The notes below the pieces were generated by a model that ran no database searches, had not been told where the DNA came from, and worked only from the letters and a program-made list of their open reading frames with translations. Position numbers and translations under genes: made by a program. From contig JAGOMP010000003.1 in assembly GCA_017993505.1 (NCBI GenBank), positions 62,001 through 126,000 of the forward strand: a DNA stretch of 64,000 nt, read 5' to 3'. This stretch comes from Planctomycetota bacterium (GTDB lineage: Bacteria > Planctomycetota > Uabimicrobiia > Uabimicrobiales > JABWCH01). Position 1 is the stretch's first letter; every line of letters starts with the position of its first letter. Shown in pieces: positions 6,870-55,865 of this stretch.

Positions 6870-7736
6870 ATGAACAAAAAAAGAAAAAAACTCACCAAGT
6901 CTCACTCTGATCACTACAACATCGCTGATAAATTCATAGTTGAAAAATTCATGAATGCGGAAAACATTGACAGACAATGTAATAACCACACTATCAATCA
7001 AAAAATTTCTCCAGAACAATCTGTAAATCCTATTGGATTCCAATTCTTACGTAAAAAACAATATACATGTGGGAAACAAACATACACAATTGAAGAATAT
7101 CTACATACAGCTACCAATATTGAATTCAGCCTTATTCCAAAAGGCGATTTTTATATGGGAAGCAATGATTCCAAATTTTCCAAACCTGTAAGAAAAGGAA
7201 GCATCACAAAATCTTATTTAATGGCAAAATATCCTTGTACAGAAGAACAATGGGAAAATGTTATGAAAGATACAAAAATAACAACACCTCATGCTCCCAT
7301 AGTTCAAATTTCTTGGGATCAATGCATAGAATTTTGTAAAAAAACTGGCTTACAACTTCCTAATGAAATTCAATGGGAATACGCTTGTCGAGCAGGTAGC
7401 ACCACTCGTTGGTCATTTGGAGACAACATGGCAGATCTCACAGACTACGCTTGGGTAAAAAGCAACTCTAACAAACAAATCCAAGAAGTCGGACTTAAAA
7501 AACCTAATGCATTTGGACTCTATGACATGCATGGAAATATATGGGAATGGTGCGAAGACATTTGGAAAATCAACTACCATGAATCAAAAGAAATCATAAA
7601 TCCCTTAGCTCATACTATAAGAGGCGGCAGTTTCAACTTTCCAAGCCTCTTTTCTACATCAGCAGCACGTTCCTATCATGTAAAATACAACTACCACATT
7701 GGCTTTCGAGTATCGTACTACGACAATACCTTCTAA
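6870..7736 (+). CDS. Formylglycine-generating-enzyme-like (SUMF1/FGE-sulfatase domain) protein
   Basis: 288 residues; an FGE-sulfatase fold fills about residues 85-288. Family landmarks: LIPKGDFYMGSND, CTEEQWENV, VQISWDQCIEFCKKTG, LPNEIQWEYACRAG, GLYDMHGNIWEWCED and the closing RGGSF...GFRV. The segment after RGGSF, where true formylglycine-generating enzymes carry two copper-binding cysteines, reads SAARSYHVKYN and has none. It is therefore probably not a sulfatase activator but one of the many binding or structural relatives. The first 80 residues are low-complexity. The start has a GGGAAA site upstream. A CCCCAG/CTGGGG hairpin follows the gene. Confidence 0.8.
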   Translation: MNKKRKKLTKSHSDHYNIADKFIVEKFMNAENIDRQCNNHTINQKISPEQSVNPIGFQFLRKKQYTCGKQTYTIEEYLHTATNIEFSLIPKGDFYMGSNDSKFSKPVRKGSITKSYLMAKYPCTEEQWENVMKDTKITTPHAPIVQISWDQCIEFCKKTGLQLPNEIQWEYACRAGSTTRWSFGDNMADLTDYAWVKSNSNKQIQEVGLKKPNAFGLYDMHGNIWEWCEDIWKINYHESKEIINPLAHTIRGGSFNFPSLFSTSAARSYHVKYNYHIGFRVSYYDNTF

Positions 7737-7786: not shown

Positions 7787-7806
7787 GCCCCAGTTTACTC
7801 TGGGGC
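7787..7806 (+). terminator. Hairpin after the FGE-like gene
   Basis: GCCCCAG (7787-7793) pairs with CTGGGGC (7800-7806) around a 6-base loop and is followed by AATTTAATTTT. It is a plausible terminator and also marks the left boundary of the repeat array around the methyltransferase. Confidence 0.5.
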
Positions 7807-7931
7807 AATTTAATTTTCCCACCCCCGAGAATCTCCCTAGCACCCCAGAGCAACTCCCCCAGAGCAAATTTGCCTTCCCAGAACAACTTTCCAGAGCAAT
7901 TTTCACAACGAATTTCTTCCCAGAATAGTTG
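7800..7931 (+). repeat. Left array of CCCCAGAGCAA-type repeats
   Basis: About seven imperfect copies of a CCCCAGAGCAAATTT-like word spaced by roughly 11-20 bases, much richer in C than the surroundings. The same word makes up the array at 9919-10111, on the other side of the restriction-modification genes and in the same orientation. It has neither the fixed spacers nor the repeat length of a CRISPR. Confidence 0.75.
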
Positions 7932-7962
7932 ACTATAAAAAATGAAACTTGATGGATCAATG

Positions 7963-7991
7963 TAGACATTTAAGTTTAAATATTGTAATAT
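7963..7991 (+). promoter_or_regulatory. Promoter of the DNA methyltransferase
   Basis: TAGACA (7963-7968), a 17-bp spacer and TAATAT (7986-7991) lie just upstream of a strong AAGGAGGAG ribosome site and the ATG at 8014. The short leader (about 15 bases) fits an independently transcribed gene. Confidence 0.55.
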
Positions 7992-8013
7992 AATTATACA
8001 AGGAGGAGTTCAT

Positions 8014-9474
8014 ATGAACGGAGGAAAGAAAACAGAAGCAAGAAGAAAATCTGTACTGAATTATCAAAAAAAAATGCCTAAAAGTATATATTTAGCTCCA
8101 AGTATTGATCGACAAATGAATTTTTTTCAGGAAGATTCAATGTCCAATACTTGTAGAAACTTAACTGAAGAAGATTTAAAAAATATTAAGACAAAAAAAA
8201 TATTAAAATATATAGACCTTTTTTCTGGTTTAGGTGGTTTAAGAATAGGTCTAGAACAAGCATTAAAAGAATTTGGTTTACAAGGGAAATGTGTCTTCAG
8301 TTCAGAAATAAAAGAGCATGCTTTATCAGCTTATAATACCTATTTCAAAGAAGATCATTGTGCTATAGATATTACAAAAATAGTTGCTAAAGATATACCG
8401 GACTTTGATATCTTACTTGCTGGATTTCCTTGTCAAGCTTTTAGTAGTGCTGGTAAACGATTAGGTTTTTACGATACACGAGGAACTTTATTTTTCGATA
8501 TAGAAAGAATTTTAAAGGAAAAACTTCCTTCTGCATTTATTCTTGAGAATGTTGAGGGTTTAATCACACATGATAAGGGCAGAACTTTAAAAATTATATT
8601 AGATTCATTAAAAAATTTAGGCTATAACGTCAACTATGCTTTATTAAATGGTCAAAATTTTGGATTGGCTCAATTTCGAAATCGAGTATATATTGTTGGC
8701 ACATTTACTTCTTATGTTCCCTTAGATAACTTTGAATATACTTTTTCATCTTTTCAAGATATTCAAGAATATGGTAAAAAAACTGTCAACTCTTTTTTTA
8801 CTTCACAAGTTTTAAGTCACTTTAAACTAGAGGATTTATTTGGTAAAACTATAAAAGATACACGTGGTGGCAAGAATAATATTCATTCTTGGGATATAGA
8901 ACTCAAAGGAGAGGTTACTGATTGTCAAAAGGCATTATTAAGTAAGTTATTGCGAGAAAGAAGGAAAAAACATTGGGCTGATAAAATTGGAATAACTTGG
9001 ATGGATGGTATGCCATTAACAACAAAACAAATAAGTACATTCTTTTTTTCTGATAATTTACAAGAGATGCTTGATGATTTAACTGAAAAGGGATATCTTG
9101 TTTTAGAACACCCAAAAGAACGTATTGGAAATCAACGAAAATTTGATGTTACAAAAGATAAAGGATATAATATAGTTACTGGTAAACTATCATTTGAATT
9201 CTCTAGCTTCCAAGATCCAAATGATGTTACCCCAACATTAGTGGCAACAGATGTTTCTAAGATCGGAGTAATTGATAATGGTGGTATTCGTGAACTAACC
9301 ATAAAAGAAGGTTTACGTTTATTTGGTTTTCCTGAAGATTATTCACTCAGCTTTTTAAAGAAAAGTGATGCTTTTGATTTACTAGGAAATACTGTCTGTG
9401 TACCAGTAATAAAAGAAATTTCAAAAAACGTGATCTATGCTCTATTTAAAACAAAAGAAAGTACTGATACGTGA
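8014..9474 (+). CDS. DNA (cytosine-5)-methyltransferase of a type II restriction-modification system
   Basis: Transfers methyl from S-adenosylmethionine to C5 of cytosine. 486 residues with ordered motifs: I, YIDLFSGLGGLRIGLEQA (66-83); IV, AGFPCQAFSSAG (136-147) with catalytic Cys140; VI, ILENVEG (176-182); VIII, FGLAQFRNRVYIVG (216-229). A long target-recognition region containing RRKKHWADKIG and WMDGMPLT follows, then motif IX RELTIKEGLRLFGFP and X LLGNTVCVPV. The start is set by AAGGAGGAG upstream. The first 60 residues precede the catalytic fold and are charged. It converges with a truncated restriction-enzyme remnant 52 bp downstream, and both sit between repeat arrays, suggesting an acquired module. 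Specificity GGNNCC is a guess from the nuclease resemblance only. Confidence 0.93.
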   Translation: MNGGKKTEARRKSVLNYQKKMPKSIYLAPSIDRQMNFFQEDSMSNTCRNLTEEDLKNIKTKKILKYIDLFSGLGGLRIGLEQALKEFGLQGKCVFSSEIKEHALSAYNTYFKEDHCAIDITKIVAKDIPDFDILLAGFPCQAFSSAGKRLGFYDTRGTLFFDIERILKEKLPSAFILENVEGLITHDKGRTLKIILDSLKNLGYNVNYALLNGQNFGLAQFRNRVYIVGTFTSYVPLDNFEYTFSSFQDIQEYGKKTVNSFFTSQVLSHFKLEDLFGKTIKDTRGGKNNIHSWDIELKGEVTDCQKALLSKLLRERRKKHWADKIGITWMDGMPLTTKQISTFFFSDNLQEMLDDLTEKGYLVLEHPKERIGNQRKFDVTKDKGYNIVTGKLSFEFSSFQDPNDVTPTLVATDVSKIGVIDNGGIRELTIKEGLRLFGFPEDYSLSFLKKSDAFDLLGNTVCVPVIKEISKNVIYALFKTKESTDT

Positions 9475-9483
9475 AAGTTAGTA

Positions 9484-9521
9484 TAAAACCAAGAATGTAT
9501 TATCAAGAATTGTCGGTTTTA
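9484..9521. terminator. Weak hairpin between methyltransferase and nuclease remnant
   Basis: TAAAACC (9484-9490) can pair with GGTTTTA (9514-9520), followed by TTTTA, between two converging genes. The loop is long (about 23 bases), so the call is tentative. Confidence 0.3.
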
Positions 9522-9526
9522 TTTTA

Positions 9527-9928
9527 TCAATATCTTATGCGTTTAAGTAACATACTTTGAATATTATCATTAGCATTTTTTAGCCATTGTTTAGCATGAT
9601 CTGATCCGCGATAACTCTCTAATGTTAAATATAAAGCTTCTAAAAAATTTTCTTTTGTATCAAAGGTTGATTTCCTTCCATATTGAAAAGCTGTATTAAG
9701 TCTAATATTATAAATTACATTTCTTTTAACTTGTGTTTTTAAAGGATAGCGTGAAGATGTACCTGCTATTTCCCAAATTTTCTTTAACCAGATATTTTTT
9801 ATTTCTATATAACCATAGTCATCAATATGATAACTAAAAATTAGGTAATCTGCATCAAGGCGAAAGGAATCGATAGCTATCGATTCACAATATGATTCAA
9901 AATTTGCAATATCAAATCCAGGGCAACT
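9527..9928 (-). pseudogene. 5'-truncated type II restriction endonuclease remnant (NgoBV-like)
   Basis: Reading the minus strand from a TAA at 9929-9931 gives an open frame of about 133 codons ending at TGA 9527. It has no ATG/GTG/TTG start, and its upstream end runs straight into the repeat array. The peptide includes DSFRLDADYLIF, EIKNIWLKKIWEIAG, PLKTQVKRNVIYNIR and a C-terminal helical part with LESYRGSDHAKQWLKNA. The K/W-rich IWLKKIWEI...YNIR pattern is what I associate with the RE_NgoBV family, but I cannot verify it. The tail-to-tail position with the methyltransferase supports a cognate nuclease. The catalytic N-terminal part is absent, so the nuclease is presumably dead and the methyltransferase orphaned. 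Confidence 0.6.
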
Positions 9929-10111
9929 TTACCTTCCCCAGAGCAACAAATACTTCCCCAGAGCAAATTTGTTTTACCTTCCCCCGAGCAAATTTACTTC
10001 CCCCGAGCAAATTTTCCTCCCCAGAGCAAATTTGTTTTACCTTCCTCCGAGCAAATTTACTTCCCCAGAGCAAATTTGCATGAATTCGTATGCGTTTTTC
10101 CCCAAAGCATA
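9919..10111 (+). repeat. Right array of CCCCAGAGCAA-type repeats
   Basis: About nine imperfect copies of a CCCC(A)GAGCAAATTT word separated by short T/C-rich spacers; some copies read CCCCGAGC. A larger unit with GTTTTACCTTCC recurs. The array has replaced the start of the restriction-enzyme gene. Open frames across it (rich in SPEQ and PRAN words) are repeat artefacts. Confidence 0.75.
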
Positions 10112-10149
10112 TTTTCCCCAGAGTTATTTCAGAGTTATTCTGGGGAAAA
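10112..10149. terminator. Perfect 11-bp stem hairpin built from the repeat motif
   Basis: TTTTCCCCAGA (10112-10122) is an exact reverse complement of TCTGGGGAAAA (10139-10149) with a 16-base loop. On the minus strand the stem ends in a T-run, so it can terminate the GatD-like gene. It closes the right end of the repeat-flanked island and mirrors the hairpin at 7787. Confidence 0.6.
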
Positions 10150-10192: not shown

Positions 10193-11593
10193 TTAGTGAT
10201 ATACTTGGTGAAGGAATTTTTCGATTTCAGGAATTTCACCTTGATAAAGAAGATAGGCATTGCATGGTTCACGGTCAGTAATTTCGTCGTTGATAGGTGT
10301 GAGCATGATTTCTTTTACTTTGTCAAGATCTTGTGTTTGACCAAGAGCCCAGCCGAGTTTAATGTAGGCGACTTCGGGAAGCATGTTGCCAAGGGGAATA
10401 ACTCCAAGAGCTTGGAGATCACGTCCAGTATTGTATACGTTCATGTTGACGTACCCCCAGAGTGTTTGTAATGTCATGTAGATGGTGATGTTGTGTTCTT
10501 TGGCACGTTTGATAGCTGGAAATAGTTGACAGTTGACGTGTCCTAGTCCTGTTCCTACGAAAACAATACCTTTGTAACCTTTGTCTATGAGGTTGTCGAT
10601 AATATCAGCTTTCATGCCTGGATAGTAATAAATCATGGATACTCTATCGTCAAAATATGGTAGGATTTGTACTTCTCTATCATTTTTACGCCTTGGTTTA
10701 TAGTTATGGTTGAGTATGTTAAAGCCTTTGTCTGTAACCATAGCTAGAGGAATGTCTCCAATAGTACGAAATGTGGATCGATAGGAGGAGTGCATTTTGC
10801 GAACTCGTGTGCCTTTATGTAGTAGTCTGTATTCGTCAGATGTTGTTCCTGACATACATACAATTACTTCTGCAATGTCAGAATATGCAGCAGTACGCAT
10901 AGCTTGCATTAAGTTTAATGCAGCATCGGAGCTGGGACGATCAGAAGAACGTTGTGATCCAACAAGTACTATGGGGATGGGAGGATTTTGTACCATGAAA
11001 GTGAGGGCAGCACTAGTATGTTGAAGTGTGTCTGTGCCATGTCCAATAACAATTCCATCTATTCCGTTTTTTATTTCTTCACCAATGGCAATGGCAAGTT
11101 TTTTATATTCTTCTGGAGTCATGTTTTCGCTGAATACTGCAAATAATTTTTCTGTAGTTAAGTTGCAGATATCTGCTAGTTCTGGAACAGAGCCATATAG
11201 TTCTCCAGGAGAAAAGGCAGGGATGACTGCTCCTGTTCGATAGTCTAATCTAGAGGCAATTGTTCCCCCAGTTCCGAAAAGTTTAACTCTAGGAAGACCT
11301 TCTTTAACGGGGAAAGGACGTTCTGGAATTTTGTAATTGGCTTTTTTATAGCCGATTTCTATCATGTTCGTAATGGTACTGGTGCTAAGACCGATATTAT
11401 AGCCTGTTTGTATTTTCATGACAATGTGTTTGTCATCTGCAGTTTCTGCTCTGGGGAGAATAGTACCCTCAAATGTACCTCTTGTTGTTTCAACTTTTGC
11501 TTGTCCCCAAACTCGAACTTTGTATTTTTGTAAAATTTCCAAGGCATCGCCTCGGTATCCTTGAAATATATCTTCGCTCATATGTTTAGGCAT
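10193..11593 (-). CDS. gatD: Archaeal-type Glu-tRNA(Gln) amidotransferase subunit D-like / asparaginase-family amidohydrolase
   Basis: 466 residues. The C-terminal 370 residues are a type I/II asparaginase fold: KLFGTGGTIASR (first catalytic Thr loop), GIVIGHGTDTLQHTSAAL (second catalytic Thr-Asp loop) and IVLVGSQRSSDRPSSDAALN. In front is a roughly 95-residue beta domain (VRVWGQAKVETTRGTFEGTILPR...), the AnPRTase-like domain that distinguishes archaeal GatD from plain asparaginases. GatD releases ammonia from glutamine or asparagine for GatE, which amidates Glu-tRNA(Gln). No gatE is in the window and bacteria normally use GatCAB, so a stand-alone amidohydrolase role is possible. A GGAGGGG site lies about 10 bases before the ATG. 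Archaeal origin by transfer is inference. Confidence 0.82.
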   Translation of the reverse strand: MPKHMSEDIFQGYRGDALEILQKYKVRVWGQAKVETTRGTFEGTILPRAETADDKHIVMKIQTGYNIGLSTSTITNMIEIGYKKANYKIPERPFPVKEGLPRVKLFGTGGTIASRLDYRTGAVIPAFSPGELYGSVPELADICNLTTEKLFAVFSENMTPEEYKKLAIAIGEEIKNGIDGIVIGHGTDTLQHTSAALTFMVQNPPIPIVLVGSQRSSDRPSSDAALNLMQAMRTAAYSDIAEVIVCMSGTTSDEYRLLHKGTRVRKMHSSYRSTFRTIGDIPLAMVTDKGFNILNHNYKPRRKNDREVQILPYFDDRVSMIYYYPGMKADIIDNLIDKGYKGIVFVGTGLGHVNCQLFPAIKRAKEHNITIYMTLQTLWGYVNMNVYNTGRDLQALGVIPLGNMLPEVAYIKLGWALGQTQDLDKVKEIMLTPINDEITDREPCNAYLLYQGEIPEIEKFLHQVYH

Positions 11594-12521: not shown

Positions 12522-15500
12522 TTAGGAAATGGCAATGATTTTAAGTTTATAGTAGTTAGCAGATTCATCTAATATGTGGAGTATGTTATCTTTAACTGCA
12601 ATAGAGGATGATGCTGCAATGATGTTTGATTCGGTAGTATATGTTTGTAGCAATGTACCATGTTGTAAGTTCCATACTCGAATATGATTATTGGATGTTG
12701 AAATAATGTATTGATTGTCAGGAGTGAATAATAAGTTTGTGATGTTGTTTGTGTGTGCGTGGATAGTTTGAATAAGTTGCAATGTTTGTAAATCCCAGAT
12801 GCGAATATTGCCTTGTTTACTGCCAGTGATGAATATATTGTCATCAGGAGAAATAGTAACAACAACAATAGAATCAGGATGGCAGATAGTCTGTTTTTGC
12901 ATGCTATGTGAGGAGATATCCCAAAGGATGATGTTGTGATCTTGACAGGTACTGATAATATTTTTTTCATCATGCGTGATTGCCAATACTTTGACTTGTG
13001 CTATATGTCCTTGGTATGTTTCTTGGGCTTGTGTTTTTACGTTGTATAGATAGATGTGATTGCATTGTGTGGTATATGATAGATAAGTGCTTTGTGGAGA
13101 AATTACTAAGTTTGTGACTTGTGTAAGAAATGTTTGTAAAGTTTTTATGTCTATATTAGATTGTGTGGCTTGGTTTTGTGAAGAAATTACTAAGTTTGTG
13201 ACTTGGGTAAGAAATGTTTGTAAAATTTTTGTGTCTATGTCTAATTTACATTGTTTGAGTTGATTGTTTTGAATAAAATATAGATTGTTGTCTTTATTGT
13301 CTATTTGTAGAAAGTTGACGTATCCCAATGGTAGTATGTTTTTTTCTTGAATGCTCCCTGTATTTGTATCATAAAGCTGTAATTTGTTGTTATTATCTAT
13401 GATGGCGTATTTTGCATTTTGTATAAATATTGCATTTTGTATAACCGAGAGTGGTTTTGGATTATATGTATTAGCATTGATTCTTTTGAGCCATAGAGAA
13501 CCTTTTTGCCACAGGCAATGGCGGAGAGATTGTTGTAATGATTGTAGGTATTTATCTGATATGTCTGTTTGTTGAAATAGACGTTGGTAGAGTTGTTGTA
13601 TGAAGTAATTGGGCATGTATTGTTGTAAAGAGAGTGCTTTTTTTTCTTGTTCTAGTGCAGTTTGCAATATTTGTAGATAGGGATGATCTTGTTGAAGTTG
13701 GATTGCAAAATCAATGATGGATTTAAGTTCTTGATATCCTCTGAGTTCGTATATTTTTTCTAATTGAATGAATGTTAAGAATGCGTTTACAAGAGAATTC
13801 ACTGCAGTTTGTTTTATGTTATCGAATTCTTCTTGTGTTGTGGTTTGATGTATGTATTTATAGACAAGTTTAGGGAGACGAAATGTATGATGATCGCATT
13901 TTTCCCATATTTCTGTTTGAAAGAGGATAGTAGGGTCTATTTCAGAGAATGCAATGTTTTCTGTTTCTGTATGTATATCTGTAAATAGTTGCAATTTTTT
14001 TATAGTATGTATTTCTCCCAATGGAAATAAGCTAGCAATCATGCTCATTCCCCATGTGAAATCATTACTTACATACATTTTCCATCTATTTAAGATGATG
14101 CTAATTGTATGAAAATGTTGTTGCCATATGGGAGAGTCTTTAGATTTTTCTTTTATTTCTTTTTGTTCTTGTTTTTCTTTTTCTTGAAGTAGGTATTGAT
14201 AGTATTCTGTATATGTTAAATCAGTATTAAATTTTTTTTCTGCTTGGATTAAATGTAAAGAGAGAGCATGTCCATGGATGAATTGGCAAATTTGTTTTGC
14301 TGCTTGTGTTTCTTGTGCTGTTATAGCAGGTGAGTTGCCAATAAGTATTTTCAAAGCAGATTGTGTGGAAAAATTATTGAGTTGATAATTGATAACATCA
14401 GAGTGTTCATAGTATTTGGGGCTAGTGCATAGAATTTTGCAATGGAGTTTTGCTAAAGTAAAATTTGGAAAAAGTTCTTTGTGCAATATATTTGGATCTG
14501 TTAAGTTATCAATGATTAAAAGGATATTGGGATGTTGGTGGATATATTGTTGAAATTTAATAATACTGTCCAACGTTAAGTTGTATTCTGGCGATTCATT
14601 GTATATATTCAGTTCATATACTATTTTTTGAATTTCATAATGCCATTTATTTGTATTGTATAACCATAAAATTCCATCTGGAAATGCATAACTAAATCGA
14701 TGAGCAAATTCAAGTGCAAGTGTTGTTTTCCCAACTCCTTCTAGTTCTTCATATTTTGGATCTTGTGTTAAAATAACGATTTTATTTTTGCGAATATGAT
14801 GATAAAGGGTGAGCAATTCTATATCTCGTTCTTTACAATGATGCTGAACATTACTTGGAATATAGGAATTTTGTGGCAAAAAATGATGATGTGGAATGAG
14901 AGCGTCTTGTGTATTATCAATGGCTTCACAAATTTTATCAAGGACTGTTTCATAATTTTGAATGTCCATGATGGATAAAGTTTGAAGAGGGATAGGAAGA
15001 GACAGATCTGGATCACCAATAGGAATGATGACTTTCCCAAATGCAAAGGAAGTTTCCCATTCTTGCTGGACAATGGAGGATTGCATAGCTTCTTTTGTCC
15101 ATAGAAGTAATACAATTTTTGTATCTAGGATAAACCGTTGGTATTCGGTTGAAGAAGGATCGTAATGCTCAGCACGATTTTGATGATACCATACACTATA
15201 TTGTTTTTTATTAAGGTCTGCCTCCATTTTTTTTGCAATGTCTTCGTTTTCAATAGCATAACTTAAAAATATATTTTGTTTTATATTGACTAGGACGTTG
15301 ATCAATTGCATATTTTGAGTTTGTGTATAGTTTAGAGGGATGAGGCGGGATGTTGTTTTTTGTTGGTCATCATTACTATTTTTTTGTGATTCGAATAGCA
15401 TATTATAATATTCTGTAATTTTTTCACATGGTTTCCAGATTGTCATAGATTTATCTAAGCCCATGACTTCAAATGGTCGTCTGAAATTCGGCTGTAAGTT

Positions 15501-16532
15501 AATTAAATTTAGAGAATTACCTAAAATGCTGGCTTGATTTCCAATTTCAATGAGTAATCCAAAACTTGTACTATGAATATATGTAATGTTTTGCATATCT
15601 AAAATTAAATTTATATTTTCATGTGTATAATAATTTTGAATTACTTTTTTCAAGTCATTAGATGTCGATGCATTGAGGATTCCTGCAAGTTTTAATACAA
15701 TAATAGTGGAGTTTTCATGGTTATAAATTTGTTCTTCAATCTGGAATTTTTTTGTAATGGCCTCATCTTGTTGAAGGAGAAGTTTTGTGCATATACTAGG
15801 AGTTGTACATGTATCTATTTTAGATGATACTGGCGGAGTTATAGCAGAAATTGGATTTATAAACTTTAAGTCTTTAAATAAAGGAATTTTTAGAGACGAA
15901 TTATTAATAAATTCTGTAATATTATTGATTTGTTTAAATTTTTTCTGATATTGTGGTCTTAATAAATTTTTTCGAATGATATCTGAGACAAGACAATAAA
16001 GAGGTTGTATGTATGTTTCTTCTTGGGTAGCATTACTACAATATGTGGGTAAGGCAAGATCAGGGAATAGTGCACATAGGGTGAGCAAGTTGTTAGCATT
16101 GGGTAAATCTTGTTTATTCCATTGAATAATAGCAGAAATATCAGAGAGTGAGGTGTTTTTTTCTTGCAGTATGTTTTGTACATTTTCTATGCATTCTATA
16201 TTTTCTTGTATTTTTGTACTGTCTAAAAGAAAGATAATACCATCTACGTCTTGTAGTAGATGTTTTAGAATGCGATTAAATTGTAAATTTCCAGGAACAG
16301 AAAAAATATTTAATCTAGTCTGTAGACTAGCAATTTTACCTAGGTCAACTGTAAGAAAATCCATGGAGACAAGAGTGGCAGGAGTAGCTGAAATATTACA
16401 TAATTGTGCATTTCCACTACATTGCCATTTTTTATGTAATTGTTTTAAAATAGTTGTTTTACCAGATTCTTGTGGACCACAATATAAGATTTTGTAGGTC
16501 ATTTCTTTTTGTAAAAAATGAAATTGAACCAT
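12522..16532 (-). CDS. GTPase-STAS-TIR-NB-ARC-WD40 fusion protein
   Basis: 1336 residues from ATG 16532, chosen because GGAG lies 6 bases upstream; a TTG at 16565 would add 11 residues. Domains in order: a Ras/Arf-like GTPase, residues about 12-195 (P-loop GPQESGKT 19-26, FSVPG in place of DxxG at 78-81, NKQD 139-142); a STAS domain, 271-370 (LDMQNITYIHSTSFG with a candidate phospho-Ser/Thr); a TIR domain, 419-540 (IFLSYAIENEDIA start, QQEWETSF carrying a conserved Glu491); an NB-ARC/STAND NTPase, about 570-760 (P-loop EGVGKTT 598-604, Walker B LLIIDN); a helical region; and a C-terminal WD40 propeller (at least three repeats with ILWDIS, IRIWDL and IRVWNL). TIR plus STAND plus repeat sensor is the layout of bacterial immune NLR-like proteins, while the GTPase and STAS pieces suggest a switch. 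Defence is inference. Confidence 0.85.
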   Translation of the reverse strand: MVQFHFLQKEMTYKILYCGPQESGKTTILKQLHKKWQCSGNAQLCNISATPATLVSMDFLTVDLGKIASLQTRLNIFSVPGNLQFNRILKHLLQDVDGIIFLLDSTKIQENIECIENVQNILQEKNTSLSDISAIIQWNKQDLPNANNLLTLCALFPDLALPTYCSNATQEETYIQPLYCLVSDIIRKNLLRPQYQKKFKQINNITEFINNSSLKIPLFKDLKFINPISAITPPVSSKIDTCTTPSICTKLLLQQDEAITKKFQIEEQIYNHENSTIIVLKLAGILNASTSNDLKKVIQNYYTHENINLILDMQNITYIHSTSFGLLIEIGNQASILGNSLNLINLQPNFRRPFEVMGLDKSMTIWKPCEKITEYYNMLFESQKNSNDDQQKTTSRLIPLNYTQTQNMQLINVLVNIKQNIFLSYAIENEDIAKKMEADLNKKQYSVWYHQNRAEHYDPSSTEYQRFILDTKIVLLLWTKEAMQSSIVQQEWETSFAFGKVIIPIGDPDLSLPIPLQTLSIMDIQNYETVLDKICEAIDNTQDALIPHHHFLPQNSYIPSNVQHHCKERDIELLTLYHHIRKNKIVILTQDPKYEELEGVGKTTLALEFAHRFSYAFPDGILWLYNTNKWHYEIQKIVYELNIYNESPEYNLTLDSIIKFQQYIHQHPNILLIIDNLTDPNILHKELFPNFTLAKLHCKILCTSPKYYEHSDVINYQLNNFSTQSALKILIGNSPAITAQETQAAKQICQFIHGHALSLHLIQAEKKFNTDLTYTEYYQYLLQEKEKQEQKEIKEKSKDSPIWQQHFHTISIILNRWKMYVSNDFTWGMSMIASLFPLGEIHTIKKLQLFTDIHTETENIAFSEIDPTILFQTEIWEKCDHHTFRLPKLVYKYIHQTTTQEEFDNIKQTAVNSLVNAFLTFIQLEKIYELRGYQELKSIIDFAIQLQQDHPYLQILQTALEQEKKALSLQQYMPNYFIQQLYQRLFQQTDISDKYLQSLQQSLRHCLWQKGSLWLKRINANTYNPKPLSVIQNAIFIQNAKYAIIDNNNKLQLYDTNTGSIQEKNILPLGYVNFLQIDNKDNNLYFIQNNQLKQCKLDIDTKILQTFLTQVTNLVISSQNQATQSNIDIKTLQTFLTQVTNLVISPQSTYLSYTTQCNHIYLYNVKTQAQETYQGHIAQVKVLAITHDEKNIISTCQDHNIILWDISSHSMQKQTICHPDSIVVVTISPDDNIFITGSKQGNIRIWDLQTLQLIQTIHAHTNNITNLLFTPDNQYIISTSNNHIRVWNLQHGTLLQTYTTESNIIAASSSIAVKDNILHILDESANYYKLKIIAIS
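13094..13261 (-). repeat. In-frame 84-bp tandem duplication inside the WD40 gene
   Basis: Two copies (from 13094 and 13178, period 84 bp) encode consecutive 28-residue segments sharing LQTFLTQVTNLVIS. The reading frame is kept. The second-copy sequence is close to the first at DNA level, so the event is recent. Confidence 0.85.
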
Positions 16533-16545
16533 GTTACTCTCCATT

Positions 16546-16622
16546 ATTTGGATTTTCTTTTGCAAAATTTAACTTTGCCAATTTTGATTTGGATTTTCTT
16601 TTGCAAAATTTAACTTTGCCAA
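16546..16622 (-). repeat. 41-bp tandem duplication joining the dNMP kinase stop to the next gene
   Basis: ATTTGGATTTTCTTTTGCAA... starts at 16546 and 16587 with identical copies over about 36 bp. One copy contains the stop codon of the kinase gene (16610-16612); the other leads into the ribosome site and start of the GTPase-TIR gene. Confidence 0.9.
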
Positions 16623-43278: not shown

Positions 43279-43288
43279 AGTAATTCCC

Positions 43289-43468
43289 TTTATCCTTTAA
43301 TAACTCCAATGGGGGCGTAGTCTGACAACTTTTTTATATATGCCACATTCTTGCATAATGTCTACTACGTCTTAATACATTTATCCTTTAATAACTCCAA
43401 TGGGGCGTAGTCTGACAACTTTTTTGCATATGCCACTGTCCTGCATAATGTCTACTACGTCCTCTACA
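43289..43468 (-). repeat. 91-bp tandem duplication of the rtcB 3' end
   Basis: The segment from TTTATCCTTTAATAACTCC to the ACTACGTC block occurs at 43289 and again, as the true rtcB end, at 43380. About five differences in 85 bp, including one extra G that breaks the frame of the outer copy. The outer copy supplies the ribosome site of the next gene. Confidence 0.92.
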
Positions 43469-44844
43469 TCTTTATAAGCCTCTGATATTTCTTCATATAA
43501 TCCTTTGCCATCTTTACTACCATCTCGAACCACAATGCCTTTTTCTTTAAATTCTTGACGTAAATTGCGGCTTTTGAATTGTTTTAAAGCTTGTCCACGG
43601 CTAAGTTTTCGACCTGCACCATGGCAGGCACTTCCAAATGTCTCTTCCATAGCTTTTTGTGTTCCAACTAATAGAAAAGAATAACGTCCCATGTCACCAG
43701 GGATGAGAACTGGTTGTCCAATAGTCTTATACGAATTAGGAAGGGTAGGATGATGGGGACCAAATGCACGGGTCGCTCCTTTTCTATGAATAAGTACTTT
43801 ACGTTGCACACCTTGAAATATATGTTCTTCAATTTGTCCAATATTATGACAAATATCATATATTAATGTCATATTTAATTCATTTGGTGTGAATCCTAGT
43901 GCATGTAACATTGTTTCTTGGATATAGTATTGTATCATTTGGCGGTTCACAAATGCGAAATTTGCAGCACAAGCCATAGCAGAAAGATATTCTTGTCCTT
44001 CGGGAGATTGAATGGGAGCACAACAAAGTTGTTTGTCAGGAACTTCAATATTATATTTTTTCATGGCTTTTGTCATTTTTTTTATGTAATCTTCGCATAT
44101 TTGATATCCTAGTCCTCGACTTCCGGTATGAACTTGGAACATAATTTGATTTTTACTAAGTTGTAGGACATTAGCTATTTTTTGGTCATAAATTTCATCA
44201 ATAATGTCAATTTCTAAAAAATGATTGCCAGAACCTAAAGTAGCAATTTGATTTAGTCCTCTTTCCATAGCTCGTGAACTAATGACATCTGGATCTGCAT
44301 TGGGCATTGTGCCTTTAGATTCAATATATTCTAATGTTTCTTTGTCTGTATAGCCTTGGCTAACAGTCCATGCAGCTCCTTTTGATAAAATTTGACAGAG
44401 TTCGTTTGCATTAAGTCGAAGTCTATTCTTAGATCCTAATCCGGAAGGAATATTGCTAAAAAGTTGGTTGACTATATCATGAATATGGGGTTGAATTTGT
44501 TCTAGTTGTAGATCAGTTCGAATGAGTCGCACTCCACAATTAATGTCAAAGCCAATGCCACCTGGAGTGATAACGCCTTCTTCAAAATCCATGGCTGCTA
44601 CGCCACCAATAGGAAATCCATATCCCCAATGAATATCAGGCATAGCTAAGGAGTATCCTACAATTCCAGGTAAATGAGCAACATTGATTACTTGTTGAAG
44701 GCATTCATCTTCGTATAGATCATTTAATGTATTTGCATTAGCATAAATTCGCCCAGGTACTCTCATTTTGTCATGCTTAGGAATTTCATATAAACATGTA
44801 TCAATTCTTTTTAATGAAATTCTTTTTAATGAAATATTGCTCAT
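43381..44844 (-). CDS. rtcB: RNA-splicing ligase RtcB
   Basis: Joins 2',3'-cyclic phosphate and 5'-OH RNA ends with GTP and manganese in RNA repair or tRNA splicing. 487 residues, the normal length. Conserved blocks: AMPDIHWGYGFPIGG, GGIGFDINCGVRL with the metal-binding Cys103, a GSGNHFLEI segment, VHTGSRGLG, a His-rich YDICHNIGQIEEH, and CHGAGRKLSR with the guanylylated His region. The N-terminus carries an in-frame 15-bp duplication giving ISLKRISLKR. AAGGA is 8 bases before the ATG. It lies 11 bp after a TPR gene in an operon with STAS and SIR2-like/TPR genes. No RtcA or archease is seen. Confidence 0.96.
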   Translation of the reverse strand: MSNISLKRISLKRIDTCLYEIPKHDKMRVPGRIYANANTLNDLYEDECLQQVINVAHLPGIVGYSLAMPDIHWGYGFPIGGVAAMDFEEGVITPGGIGFDINCGVRLIRTDLQLEQIQPHIHDIVNQLFSNIPSGLGSKNRLRLNANELCQILSKGAAWTVSQGYTDKETLEYIESKGTMPNADPDVISSRAMERGLNQIATLGSGNHFLEIDIIDEIYDQKIANVLQLSKNQIMFQVHTGSRGLGYQICEDYIKKMTKAMKKYNIEVPDKQLCCAPIQSPEGQEYLSAMACAANFAFVNRQMIQYYIQETMLHALGFTPNELNMTLIYDICHNIGQIEEHIFQGVQRKVLIHRKGATRAFGPHHPTLPNSYKTIGQPVLIPGDMGRYSFLLVGTQKAMEETFGSACHGAGRKLSRGQALKQFKSRNLRQEFKEKGIVVRDGSKDGKGLYEEISEAYKDVEDVVDIMQDSGICKKVVRLRPIGVIKG

Positions 44845-45722: not shown

Positions 45723-47906
45723 TCATTGAAATTTTCTGATTTTTAAGATAAATTTTTTTGTCATTTTGAAAAGTTTTGTACCGTTGCTGAAAAAACTTAA
45801 ACAAGAAGCAATGCCAAATAGTGCTGCTAGTCCAAATAAAATGTAATGAAGAATACTGACTTCATAATAGTATTGGGTGAAGCATGCAATATTGAATACA
45901 ATGAGAGTTAGTAGAAATAAAATTGCACTTTTCATATAAGATGTGATTTTATAGGGTGTGTTAAAGTGTTCTATATGTCGTTTACAATAAAATAAATCTA
46001 TAGAGGCTGGAATTTTTTTTACAATTTTACAGCCTTTTGTAATAGGTGTAATCCAAAATTCTACAGTTTTGGTTTCTTTTGAAATGTTGATTAATGTCTG
46101 ATCAGGGTATACATCACATCCAGGGAATTGTGGTAAAATTAAGATATATTTATTAGTGTCCTCTATTGGTAGAAGTTCTCCCTTAATCGTCACGCTCATA
46201 GGATATGTTTGAGCATATTTCATTTTTGAGAAATATTGCACTTCCACTGTTTTTGCCACAGATAGAATTATGTACTTCTGTGAATCAATGCTTGATTTTT
46301 TTGAAGATGTTTTTGTTCTTTTTCTAGGCAATTTTTCTTCTATAGTTTCAATAATTTCATTGCAATCTATAGTTGTAGTGGGCATAGGAAGTTCTAAGTT
46401 ATCTATATTTTGTACAGTAGCAGAAACTGGTTCTATAGAGTCTGGTGTATATTTTCTTCGGCTTGGTTGCATGGCCATGAGTTCTTGTGTAGTAAAACCA
46501 TCAAAATCACTCATGGTTGTTTTAGTTTTTTGCTTTGTTTGTTCAGCGTCTTCTTCGAGTTGTATGTATTGTTCTTGATCTTCCAATACGTCTTGTTCTG
46601 GTGATTCTAGGGGAATATCTGAAAAATCGACTTCTTGTATATGAATTTTATGAGAAAACGTCATATTGTGTTCTGGAACGTTGGTATGTATTTTATTGTA
46701 GTTGGGTTCTTGTTCTTCCACGAGTCGGTCTAAAAATTCTAGGGGACTTGGTTCATATTCTGTGTCTAGTTTTTCTGTAGTGTCTTCCATCTCTAGCTCT
46801 TGTTCTGTGGAAATTTTTTGTTGTTTTTTCTCTAAGTCTTCTTTTATCATGAGCAATGTTTTTTTCAGAAATGGTACTGTTCGTTTAATATGGGGAGGTT
46901 TAGCTATGAATTTTGGTTTTACTTGTTCTTCTTCCTCTTCTTCCACTTCTTCCTCTTCTTTAGAGAATTCTTCTTGAAATGTCATGTTCTCAAATGTTAT
47001 ATCGATAGTTCTTGGAAGAATATCTTGTTTTTCTTGTACTTCTAGGTATTCCTTTTCTTGTATATTATCTTCAGTGGTTTCTATGTTTTTTTCTTGTTTA
47101 TCAGTGGTGATATCATCTAGTTGATAGTCTTCATCACTGTGACTGTCTTTATCTTTATCATAGTCTTCATCATTGGCATTGTCTCTATCATGGTCTTCAT
47201 CATTGGCATGGTCTTCATCACTGTCGCTGTTCTCATCTCTATCATGGTCTTCATCATTGGCATTGTCTCTATCATGGTCTTCATCATTGGCATGGTCTTC
47301 ATCACTGTCGCTGTTCTCATCTATATCATAGTCTTCATTAGTGGCATCATTTTTATCCATGTCATGGTCTTCATCATTGGCATTGTCTTCTTTATGATTT
47401 TTATGTTCATCAATATCATTATCTTTTTCTGTGAGGCTATCTATTTGTTTTTCTTGAGTAGGTTTTTCAGATTCGTCTTTTTGATTTTCTTCTTCTGTGC
47501 ATGATGAAATGATTTTGAAATCGCTTGCTGAGATTGGTTTCCCATTGTTTTGTTTAAAAGAAATTAAGGCTTTATCAAGATTTTCCATAATAGGAAGACA
47601 AACTTCTAGTCCTAACATGTCAAATAAAACTTTAAATTTATTGGCAACATTGATAAGTCGAATACCACCTTCTACCACATGAACACGTTGGGCTATATTA
47701 ATGAGCAATCCTAGGCCTGTACTATTGAGATATTTTGTTTCAGATAAATCTAAGATAATTTTACAGATTCCGTCACGATAAAAACCAAGAACTTTTGCTT
47801 CAAAAATTTGAAGACTTTTTTGATCAATAGGACCACAGGGTTTTAGTAATACAACATCTCCAACTTCTGCATGTTGGTAAATGATAGATTGAATGGTAAG
47901 TTCCAT
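45723..47906 (-). CDS. STAS-domain protein with acidic repeat region and C-terminal membrane spans
   Basis: 727 residues. Residues 1-110 are an anti-sigma-factor-antagonist-type STAS domain (KIILDLSETKYLNSTGLGLLINIA with a candidate phospho-Ser/Thr pair). Residues about 140-270 are an Asp/Glu/Asn/His repeat region including two 28-residue copies rich in DEDHDRD words, encoded by an 84-bp tandem repeat at 47181 and 47265. A long acidic linker is followed by a beta domain (about 545-640, SVTIKGELLPI, YPDQTLINIS), and two spans near the C-terminus (about 655-705). STAS proteins of this kind switch partners by phosphorylation. Here it sits in front of TPR and RtcB genes. Confidence 0.75.
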   Translation of the reverse strand: MELTIQSIIYQHAEVGDVVLLKPCGPIDQKSLQIFEAKVLGFYRDGICKIILDLSETKYLNSTGLGLLINIAQRVHVVEGGIRLINVANKFKVLFDMLGLEVCLPIMENLDKALISFKQNNGKPISASDFKIISSCTEEENQKDESEKPTQEKQIDSLTEKDNDIDEHKNHKEDNANDEDHDMDKNDATNEDYDIDENSDSDEDHANDEDHDRDNANDEDHDRDENSDSDEDHANDEDHDRDNANDEDYDKDKDSHSDEDYQLDDITTDKQEKNIETTEDNIQEKEYLEVQEKQDILPRTIDITFENMTFQEEFSKEEEEVEEEEEEQVKPKFIAKPPHIKRTVPFLKKTLLMIKEDLEKKQQKISTEQELEMEDTTEKLDTEYEPSPLEFLDRLVEEQEPNYNKIHTNVPEHNMTFSHKIHIQEVDFSDIPLESPEQDVLEDQEQYIQLEEDAEQTKQKTKTTMSDFDGFTTQELMAMQPSRRKYTPDSIEPVSATVQNIDNLELPMPTTTIDCNEIIETIEEKLPRKRTKTSSKKSSIDSQKYIILSVAKTVEVQYFSKMKYAQTYPMSVTIKGELLPIEDTNKYILILPQFPGCDVYPDQTLINISKETKTVEFWITPITKGCKIVKKIPASIDLFYCKRHIEHFNTPYKITSYMKSAILFLLTLIVFNIACFTQYYYEVSILHYILFGLAALFGIASCLSFFSNGTKLFKMTKKFILKIRKFQ
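47181..47348 (-). repeat. 84-bp in-frame tandem repeat coding for acidic residues
   Basis: GTCTCTATCATGGTCTTC... starts at 47181 and 47265. A few variant codons differ between copies. Shorter 18-30 bp units continue on both sides. The opposite-strand open frames over it are artefacts. Confidence 0.85.
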
Positions 47907-55710: not shown

Positions 55711-55865
55711 AAATTTTTATTATGCTTTTTAGCATGATAATGAATATATGAAATTATCTATGAAATTTTTATTATGCTTTTTAGCATGATAATGAATATA
55801 TGAAATTATCTATGAAATTTTTATTATGTTTTTAGCATGATAATGAATATATGAAATTATCTATG
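55711..55865. repeat. Three 52-bp tandem repeats, each with a small hairpin
   Basis: AAATTTTTATTATGCTTTTT... starts at 55711, 55763 and 55815, nearly identical. Each contains ATTATGC-TTTTTA-GCATGAT, an imperfect hairpin. A related TATGC...GCATG element follows at about 55930. The array occupies the leader of the large lipoprotein gene; the remaining 55411-55983 gap is extremely AT-rich with no gene. Confidence 0.9.

Follow-up and report, generated by a model that had tools for sequence, protein, structure and literature searches.

Two described systems come closest to the locus reported here, namely restriction-modification (RM) systems of the NgoBV type and the RAYT/TnpA_REP transposases with their REP repeats. 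NgoBV recognizes GGNNCC. Single RM genes often decay, and an insertion with long target duplication has been described for RM units. RAYTs, in turn, are thought to spread REPs.

In the accessible parts of the literature, inverted REPs with a GTAG tag on both sides of a RAYT gene are well documented (PMC2817692, PMC3733652). Other classes are reported to lack the GT[AG]G tag and to be less strongly structured (PMC6006769). According to the same paper, generally one full-length gene is found per REP type, and REPtrons seem not to move as a unit. Single-strand cutting and joining was proposed for TnpA_REP in the sections available (PMC8266576, PMC6006769).

The stretch of DNA analyzed here (the window, 64,000 nucleotides, G000:C37:62001-126000, GC content 0.318) belongs to a 3.08-Mb draft genome of 103 contigs that is 86% complete. 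An earlier note, made from the sequence alone, had described an RM relic between repeat arrays of the same orientation, and this observation was confirmed overall. From position 7787 to 10149, a hairpin, a short array, a methyltransferase gene (+), a nuclease remnant (-), a longer array and a second hairpin follow each other. The features of the locus and its two neighbours are:

6870-7736, + strand: FGE-sulfatase-domain protein, left neighbour (domain match)
7787-7806, + strand: hairpin closing the left array (CCCCAGTTTACTCTGGGG plus one flanking pair), 50 bp past the stop of the FGE-like gene
7843-7904, + strand: left array with four word-like copies on the + strand
8014-9474, + strand: C5-cytosine DNA methyltransferase of 486 aa with catalytic motifs and a Shine-Dalgarno-like AAGGAGG upstream
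9527-9928, - strand: NgoBV-type restriction endonuclease reduced to its C-terminal ~130 aa plus stop codon, without start codon or PD...ExK part
9918-10077, + strand: right array with ~8 word-like copies at a spacing of 19-25 bp, the first word overlapping the first homologous codons of the remnant
10112-10149, + strand: hairpin with an 11-bp stem that closes the right array, 43 bp past the stop of the GatD-like gene (- strand)
10193-11593, - strand: GatD-like asparaginase, right neighbour, convergent with the FGE-like gene (domain match)

In the reading that we regard as probable, an NgoBV-type RM system was acquired horizontally in the gap between the FGE-like and the GatD-like gene, at REP-like arrays linked to a RAYT or later overrun by them, and is now an orphan methyltransferase.

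The methyltransferase is intact, as stated in the note, and was recognized by profile searches with PF00145 (E 2e-76) and TIGR00675 (E 6e-101). It is collinear with the methyltransferases of two NgoBV-type systems at 53-54% identity, keeps their PCQ, ENV and QxRxR motif blocks in the same alignment, and differs by ~55 extra N-terminal residues. The loss of the 5′ part of the nuclease was verified as well, and the profile search suggested in the note placed the remnant in the RE_NgoBV family. The match to PF09564 (RE_NgoBV, E 3.2e-23) on the - strand (9928-9530) is restricted to positions 94-219 of the 238 profile positions; NCBIfam gave no match for the remnant. The first ~90 profile positions, including the PD...ExK segment of two full-length relatives, are missing and the homology begins directly after this segment, at the P-x-F-D block. 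As the note had described, the remaining frame has no start codon and enters the right array. TAA stops are located there just upstream. The edge of the array and the break of the gene coincide to a few bases, with the first word (9918 onward) overlapping the first homologous codons. The nuclease and methyltransferase genes face each other tail-to-tail, as on the plasmids NZ_CP092456.1 (Acinetobacter) and NZ_AP014829.1 (Geminocystis).

Judged from the sequence, the nuclease should be inactive because the missing part includes the PD...ExK segment, and the methyltransferase should now be an orphan. The remnant is the sole PF09564 match in the genome, and among 294 genomes of the phylum the family was found in one, which is the source genome itself. 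This distribution fits an inserted foreign module. From the claim of an eroding inserted module, the RM relic and the orphan methyltransferase were thus retained, whereas the role of the arrays as ends of this module was not (see below). For the GatD-like neighbour no ortholog was found in five relatives and hence no empty site could be identified there; the collections searched contained no sister strain.

The truncation could also be decay unrelated to the arrays, the right array having grown or inserted later beside a gene that was already broken. Single RM genes are prone to decay and arrays adjoin many intact genes, but the part that is homologous to the full-length nucleases starts only a few codons away from the first word, array edge and gene break thus coinciding, and a half-size HsdS gene of another RM system in this genome (contig C76) likewise runs into an array. 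We therefore consider unrelated decay rather unlikely. In our reading, the break in the nuclease gene would have arisen at a word-like site.

Both arrays of the window read CCCCAGAGCAA on the + strand, i.e., the same CCCCAGAGCAAATTT-like word in the same orientation, as the note had claimed. With up to three mismatches, 14 words were found in the window compared with 2.06 expected (100 shuffles, shuffle maximum 5), and 12 of the 14 fall in the two arrays or their hairpins. The hairpin that was proposed at the end of each array holds for both sides: the left one (stems 7787-7793/7800-7806) has a z-score of -4.2 and the right one (stems 10112-10122/10139-10149) of -5.2, and for neither hairpin did any of 200 shuffles reach an equally good fold. 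Each hairpin sits just past a stop codon and might be an intrinsic terminator. A terminal hairpin as a general trait of the arrays was rejected, as an inverted copy is present in 15 of 107 arrays, terminal in 13 of these, and the exact hairpin pattern occurs at two places only.

The word is dispersed throughout the genome. A search with the 15-mer word and up to two mismatches resulted in 482 + 554 = 1036 matches in 3.08 Mb, whereas the reversed-pattern control gave 1 + 0. In total, 107 arrays of at least four words each, comprising 1454 copies, were detected in 120 stretches (1.80 Mb). These stretches, 1.80 of 3.08 Mb, were partly picked for known words and often begin at contig ends rich in arrays, which raises the background and therefore makes the comparison with RM systems given below conservative. 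The unit length is mostly 18-20 bp with many odd spacings, the words within one array are near-uniformly oriented, and the arrays that were inspected are intergenic. In the 72 arrays that have a context of 8 kb or more, the strand of the array was found to be related neither to GC skew nor to the strand of the genes; the skew is weak, so that a polarity could be missed.

An array-like pattern was searched in ~85,000 species genomes and found in 18 stretches that vary in spacing and GC content; L050, which was read completely, is coding DNA, and the remainder was tabulated only. In viral contigs the pattern was found 0 times. With just these 18 heterogeneous stretches, a broadly shared repeat was rejected. 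Arrays with CCCCAGAGCAA-like words at 20-bp spacing are present in one Rikenellaceae and one Alistipes genome, which are unrelated hosts (L046:567-758 and L049:6141-6231). In the source genome, an ORF of 1892 aa (L106:257-5935, G000:C36) contains an in-frame 48-bp repeat that holds the array word and is read as Ser-Pro-Glu-Gln, possibly an array turned coding, possibly chance.

One of the array-bracketed ORFs encodes a Y1_Tnp protein. PF01797 has seven matches in the genome, of which six have an array within ~1 kb, co-oriented in all six; the seventh copy is riddled with stops and located near a contig end. The 385-bp 3′ flank of the transposase gene is present in 13 copies in 1.81 Mb. Twelve of them extend to the end of the flank, and each of these 12 is followed by a co-oriented array at a distance of 1-21 bp. 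Two of the 12, in L063 and L025, give identical alignments and might be a single repeat at two contig ends. On the 5′ side, where readable, there are tandem repeats of ~57 bp (ACACCTGTCCAATG...; L117:3173-3873, L157, L159, L102, L138 and others), with a further co-oriented array beyond in several cases.

The best NCBIfam model for the transposase is REP_Tyr_transpos (REP-associated tyrosine transposase), with 71.3 and 69.6 bits for two copies, under the cut-off of 80 bits; the IS200 model follows with 30 bits. The solved TnpA_REP structure 4er8 matches with an E-value of 8e-4, and both the HUH motif (NH[VI]HL) and the catalytic tyrosine (YI[DE]LN) are invariant in 10 aligned proteins. A cognate repeat dispersed in intergenic DNA, as known for RAYTs, is present (1036 word matches; 107 arrays in 1.80 Mb). 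A GTAG-tagged palindromic repeat was not found in the arrays, whose 29,881 bases contain GTAG 19 times; in the stretches analyzed there are five occurrences of a GTAG/CTAC palindrome, each upstream of a transposase gene. Inverted repeats flanking the transposase were likewise not found, the flanking arrays being direct and of one orientation. Because inverted flanks and GTAG palindrome were looked for and are lacking, the array family is regarded as of the RAYT-REP kind, but not as a canonical member.

As far as the accessible sections of the papers go, the likeness to RAYT/TnpA_REP with REPs (REPtrons, BIMEs, REPINs) comprises a HUH-Tyr protein of the Y1_Tnp family that is flanked by short repeats dispersed in intergenic DNA (PMC2817692, PMC3116915, PMC6006769), and repeat words that differ between genera along with the transposase. 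Within the same sections, the described systems have GTAG-tagged inverted palindromes and one full-length gene per REP type with two inverted REPs, whereas here the 18-20-bp word is weakly structured and forms long direct arrays, and the transposase is present in several copies. Tandem arrays of RAYT-linked repeats in the same orientation are described in the available part of the work on Pseudomonas fluorescens SBW25, but they are few and have a spacing of 72-112 bp (PMC3116915), whereas in this genome 107 arrays were counted in 1.80 Mb and their period is 18-20 bp. The literature searched, with most subscription papers outside its scope, contains in its accessible parts no description of direct 18-20-bp RAYT-linked arrays or of RM systems bracketed by them.

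For the comparison with relatives, 59 genomes were searched for the transposase, of which 26 (source genome included) had matches at E <= 1e-8. None was found at this threshold in the three of three genomes of the same family, where the word matched 28, 4 and 42 times against 2, 0 and 0 for the controls. Two genomes of the same order (G004 and G005) have 4 and 6 transposase matches at 36-47% identity, and 55 and 43 word matches against 13 and 7 for the controls. Tandem arrays with short units are located beside the transposase in 8 of 9 loci of G004 and G005; the ninth is a fragment of the transposase gene without array. The words of these arrays differ, and many have CTGGCA-like cores, a core that was chosen after viewing the RAYT loci, for which reason its p-values are optimistic. 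The noncoding tandem-repeat content at the transposase loci of both genomes exceeds that of 11 control stretches of G005 (one-sided p 0.01), and in G005 the word of two transposase loci was found mostly at transposase loci. With arrays at 8 of 9 loci, the pairing of transposase and array is therefore common to the order, and genome-wide dispersal was seen in the source genome.

It is unlikely that the arrays are slippage-born minisatellites in neutral intergenic DNA, with RM genes and transposase merely lying in loose, fast-changing regions. This explanation would account for the variable unit length (18-20 bp, odd spacings), for the other tandem repeats that are common in the window and the genome, and for the housekeeping genes that are bracketed too. 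It is opposed by one word family at more than 1000 places, 12 of 12 fixed junctions with the transposase flank and the near-uniform orientation, which require a dispersal route beyond slippage alone.

To relate the arrays to RM systems, 14 methyltransferase genes were used, which were found with PF00145, PF02384 and PF01555 only, and the borders of the RM operons were set by hand. An array within ~200 bp is present at 14 of 25 testable RM boundaries, but at 47 of 1074 ORF junctions (Fisher 4e-14), the latter including 381 gaps <50 bp that are too short for an array. In total, 41 of 914 ORFs (RM genes included) are bracketed by arrays, namely 6 of 14 methyltransferases and 35 of 900 others; the 914 ORFs include those of a C35 stretch overlapping another by 6 kb. 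Of 24 bracketed segments, 19 have arrays of matching orientation on their two sides. Arrays directly adjoin both sides of six of the 14 methyltransferase systems:

C37: the NgoBV-type relic of the window
C65: methyltransferase and EcoRII-C nuclease
C71: methyltransferase and FokI-type nuclease
C41: MmeI-like enzyme
C52: long single-chain enzyme similar to the MmeI-like one, placed by its PF02384 match only
C76: type I-like set

The other 8 of the 14 systems are not bracketed on both sides. At C20 an array is present on one side only and at C50 on the only testable side, whereas no array was found within 200 bp of the testable boundaries of C35, C100, two systems on C46, C25 (one testable side) and C103, where the nearest array is 2.6 kb away. 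C50, C25 and C103 each have a contig end on one side. The genes for EF-G, PriA, peptidase M17 and Rnf are also bracketed by arrays, so that the link between arrays and RM systems is an enrichment and not exclusive.

These results bear on two further points of the earlier note. Its view of the arrays as ends of the RM module was abandoned in light of ~100 array loci, housekeeping neighbours and the physical tie to the RAYT-like transposase. It had also named arrays at many unrelated loci, without a link to RM genes, as speaking against the RM relic; the many loci were indeed found, while the RM link is statistically strong (14/25 vs 47/1074).

Alternatively, the RM module could have been inserted along with a long target duplication, so that a single pre-existing array would now be found on either side of it. 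Such an insertion is of a kind described for RM units and would agree with the direct arrays of the same orientation in five of the six bracketed systems (C52 is mixed). It is very unlikely, since the paired arrays are no more alike than arrays elsewhere (in the window, the left and the right array are no mutual best matches, with ranks 48 and 46, and other RM pairs rank 7-46), which speaks against a recent duplication even if a fast array turnover could have erased the similarity.

For the preferred reading, an acquired RM system at RAYT-linked arrays, we infer the following course of events by which RM modules and arrays came together. The REP-like array family would belong to the multi-copy RAYT-like Y1/HUH transposase, a TnpA_REP relative, which would spread the words by single-strand cleavage and joining, and slippage would lengthen them into arrays. 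The arrays may be places where foreign cassettes, e.g., RM modules, settle or are kept, via recombination between repeats or insertion into arrays. A tail-to-tail NgoBV-type RM system would have been acquired horizontally into the convergent gap between the FGE-like and the GatD-like gene. The 5′ third of the nuclease gene could then have been lost at a word-like site, through the invasion or growth of an array or through a deletion mediated by repeats, and the cell may have tolerated this loss because the methyltransferase stayed intact. Counted against this reading are the bracketing of housekeeping genes, the 35 of 41 bracketed ORFs that are not methyltransferases and the eight of 14 systems without arrays on both sides. 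Furthermore, RAYT hallmarks are missing (NCBIfam score, inverted flanks, GTAG), no bias of the array orientation against GC skew was found, the window arrays are not best matches of each other, and no empty site was found.

The transposase described here is a RAYT relative with long direct arrays, a fixed junction between array and transposase and a word that differs between genera of one order, and its arrays are far more frequent at the borders of RM systems than at those of other genes. The position of REPs was compared with acquired genes in Pseudomonas too, where acquired elements are found in REP-free regions, the REP deserts, according to the available part of that study, whereas RM borders are enriched in arrays here (PMC3390384). 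Because this pattern is opposite to the one in Pseudomonas, as far as that source was accessible, the relation between repeat families and the turnover of defence genes becomes directly testable (PMC3390384).

As a tentative and quite unlikely extension, RAYT-type transposase and direct arrays might together form a cassette platform, in which co-oriented arrays would serve as interchangeable borders for the gain, swap and trimming of RM and perhaps other addiction modules, the toxic half being lost first. Such a platform would be integron-like, yet made from repeats and a domesticated Y1 transposase.

Some further observations were made during the analysis. The half-size HsdS-like gene mentioned above (L132:4041-4769, G000:C76) runs into the array with its 3′ end and is located beside a type I-like methyltransferase set. 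A solitary DarT1-associated NADAR antitoxin gene (L068:4513-5142, G000:C69; PF22397, E 5e-67) lies between two co-oriented arrays that contain no other ORF of at least 150 aa between them, and is possibly a second antidote kept without its partner. On C46, eight consecutive co-directional ORFs of 132-144 aa were found (L074:1994-6268); four of these were tested, and three match SdpI/YfhL, two with scores that exceed the cut-off. The window itself contains three near-identical 52-bp units with an inverted-repeat core (55711-55865), a 90-bp repeat (43281-43475) and an 84-bp repeat (47127-47390), as well as a gene at 12522-16565 (- strand) for a protein of 1347 aa that combines an Arf-like GTPase, a STAS domain, a TIR domain and WD40 repeats.
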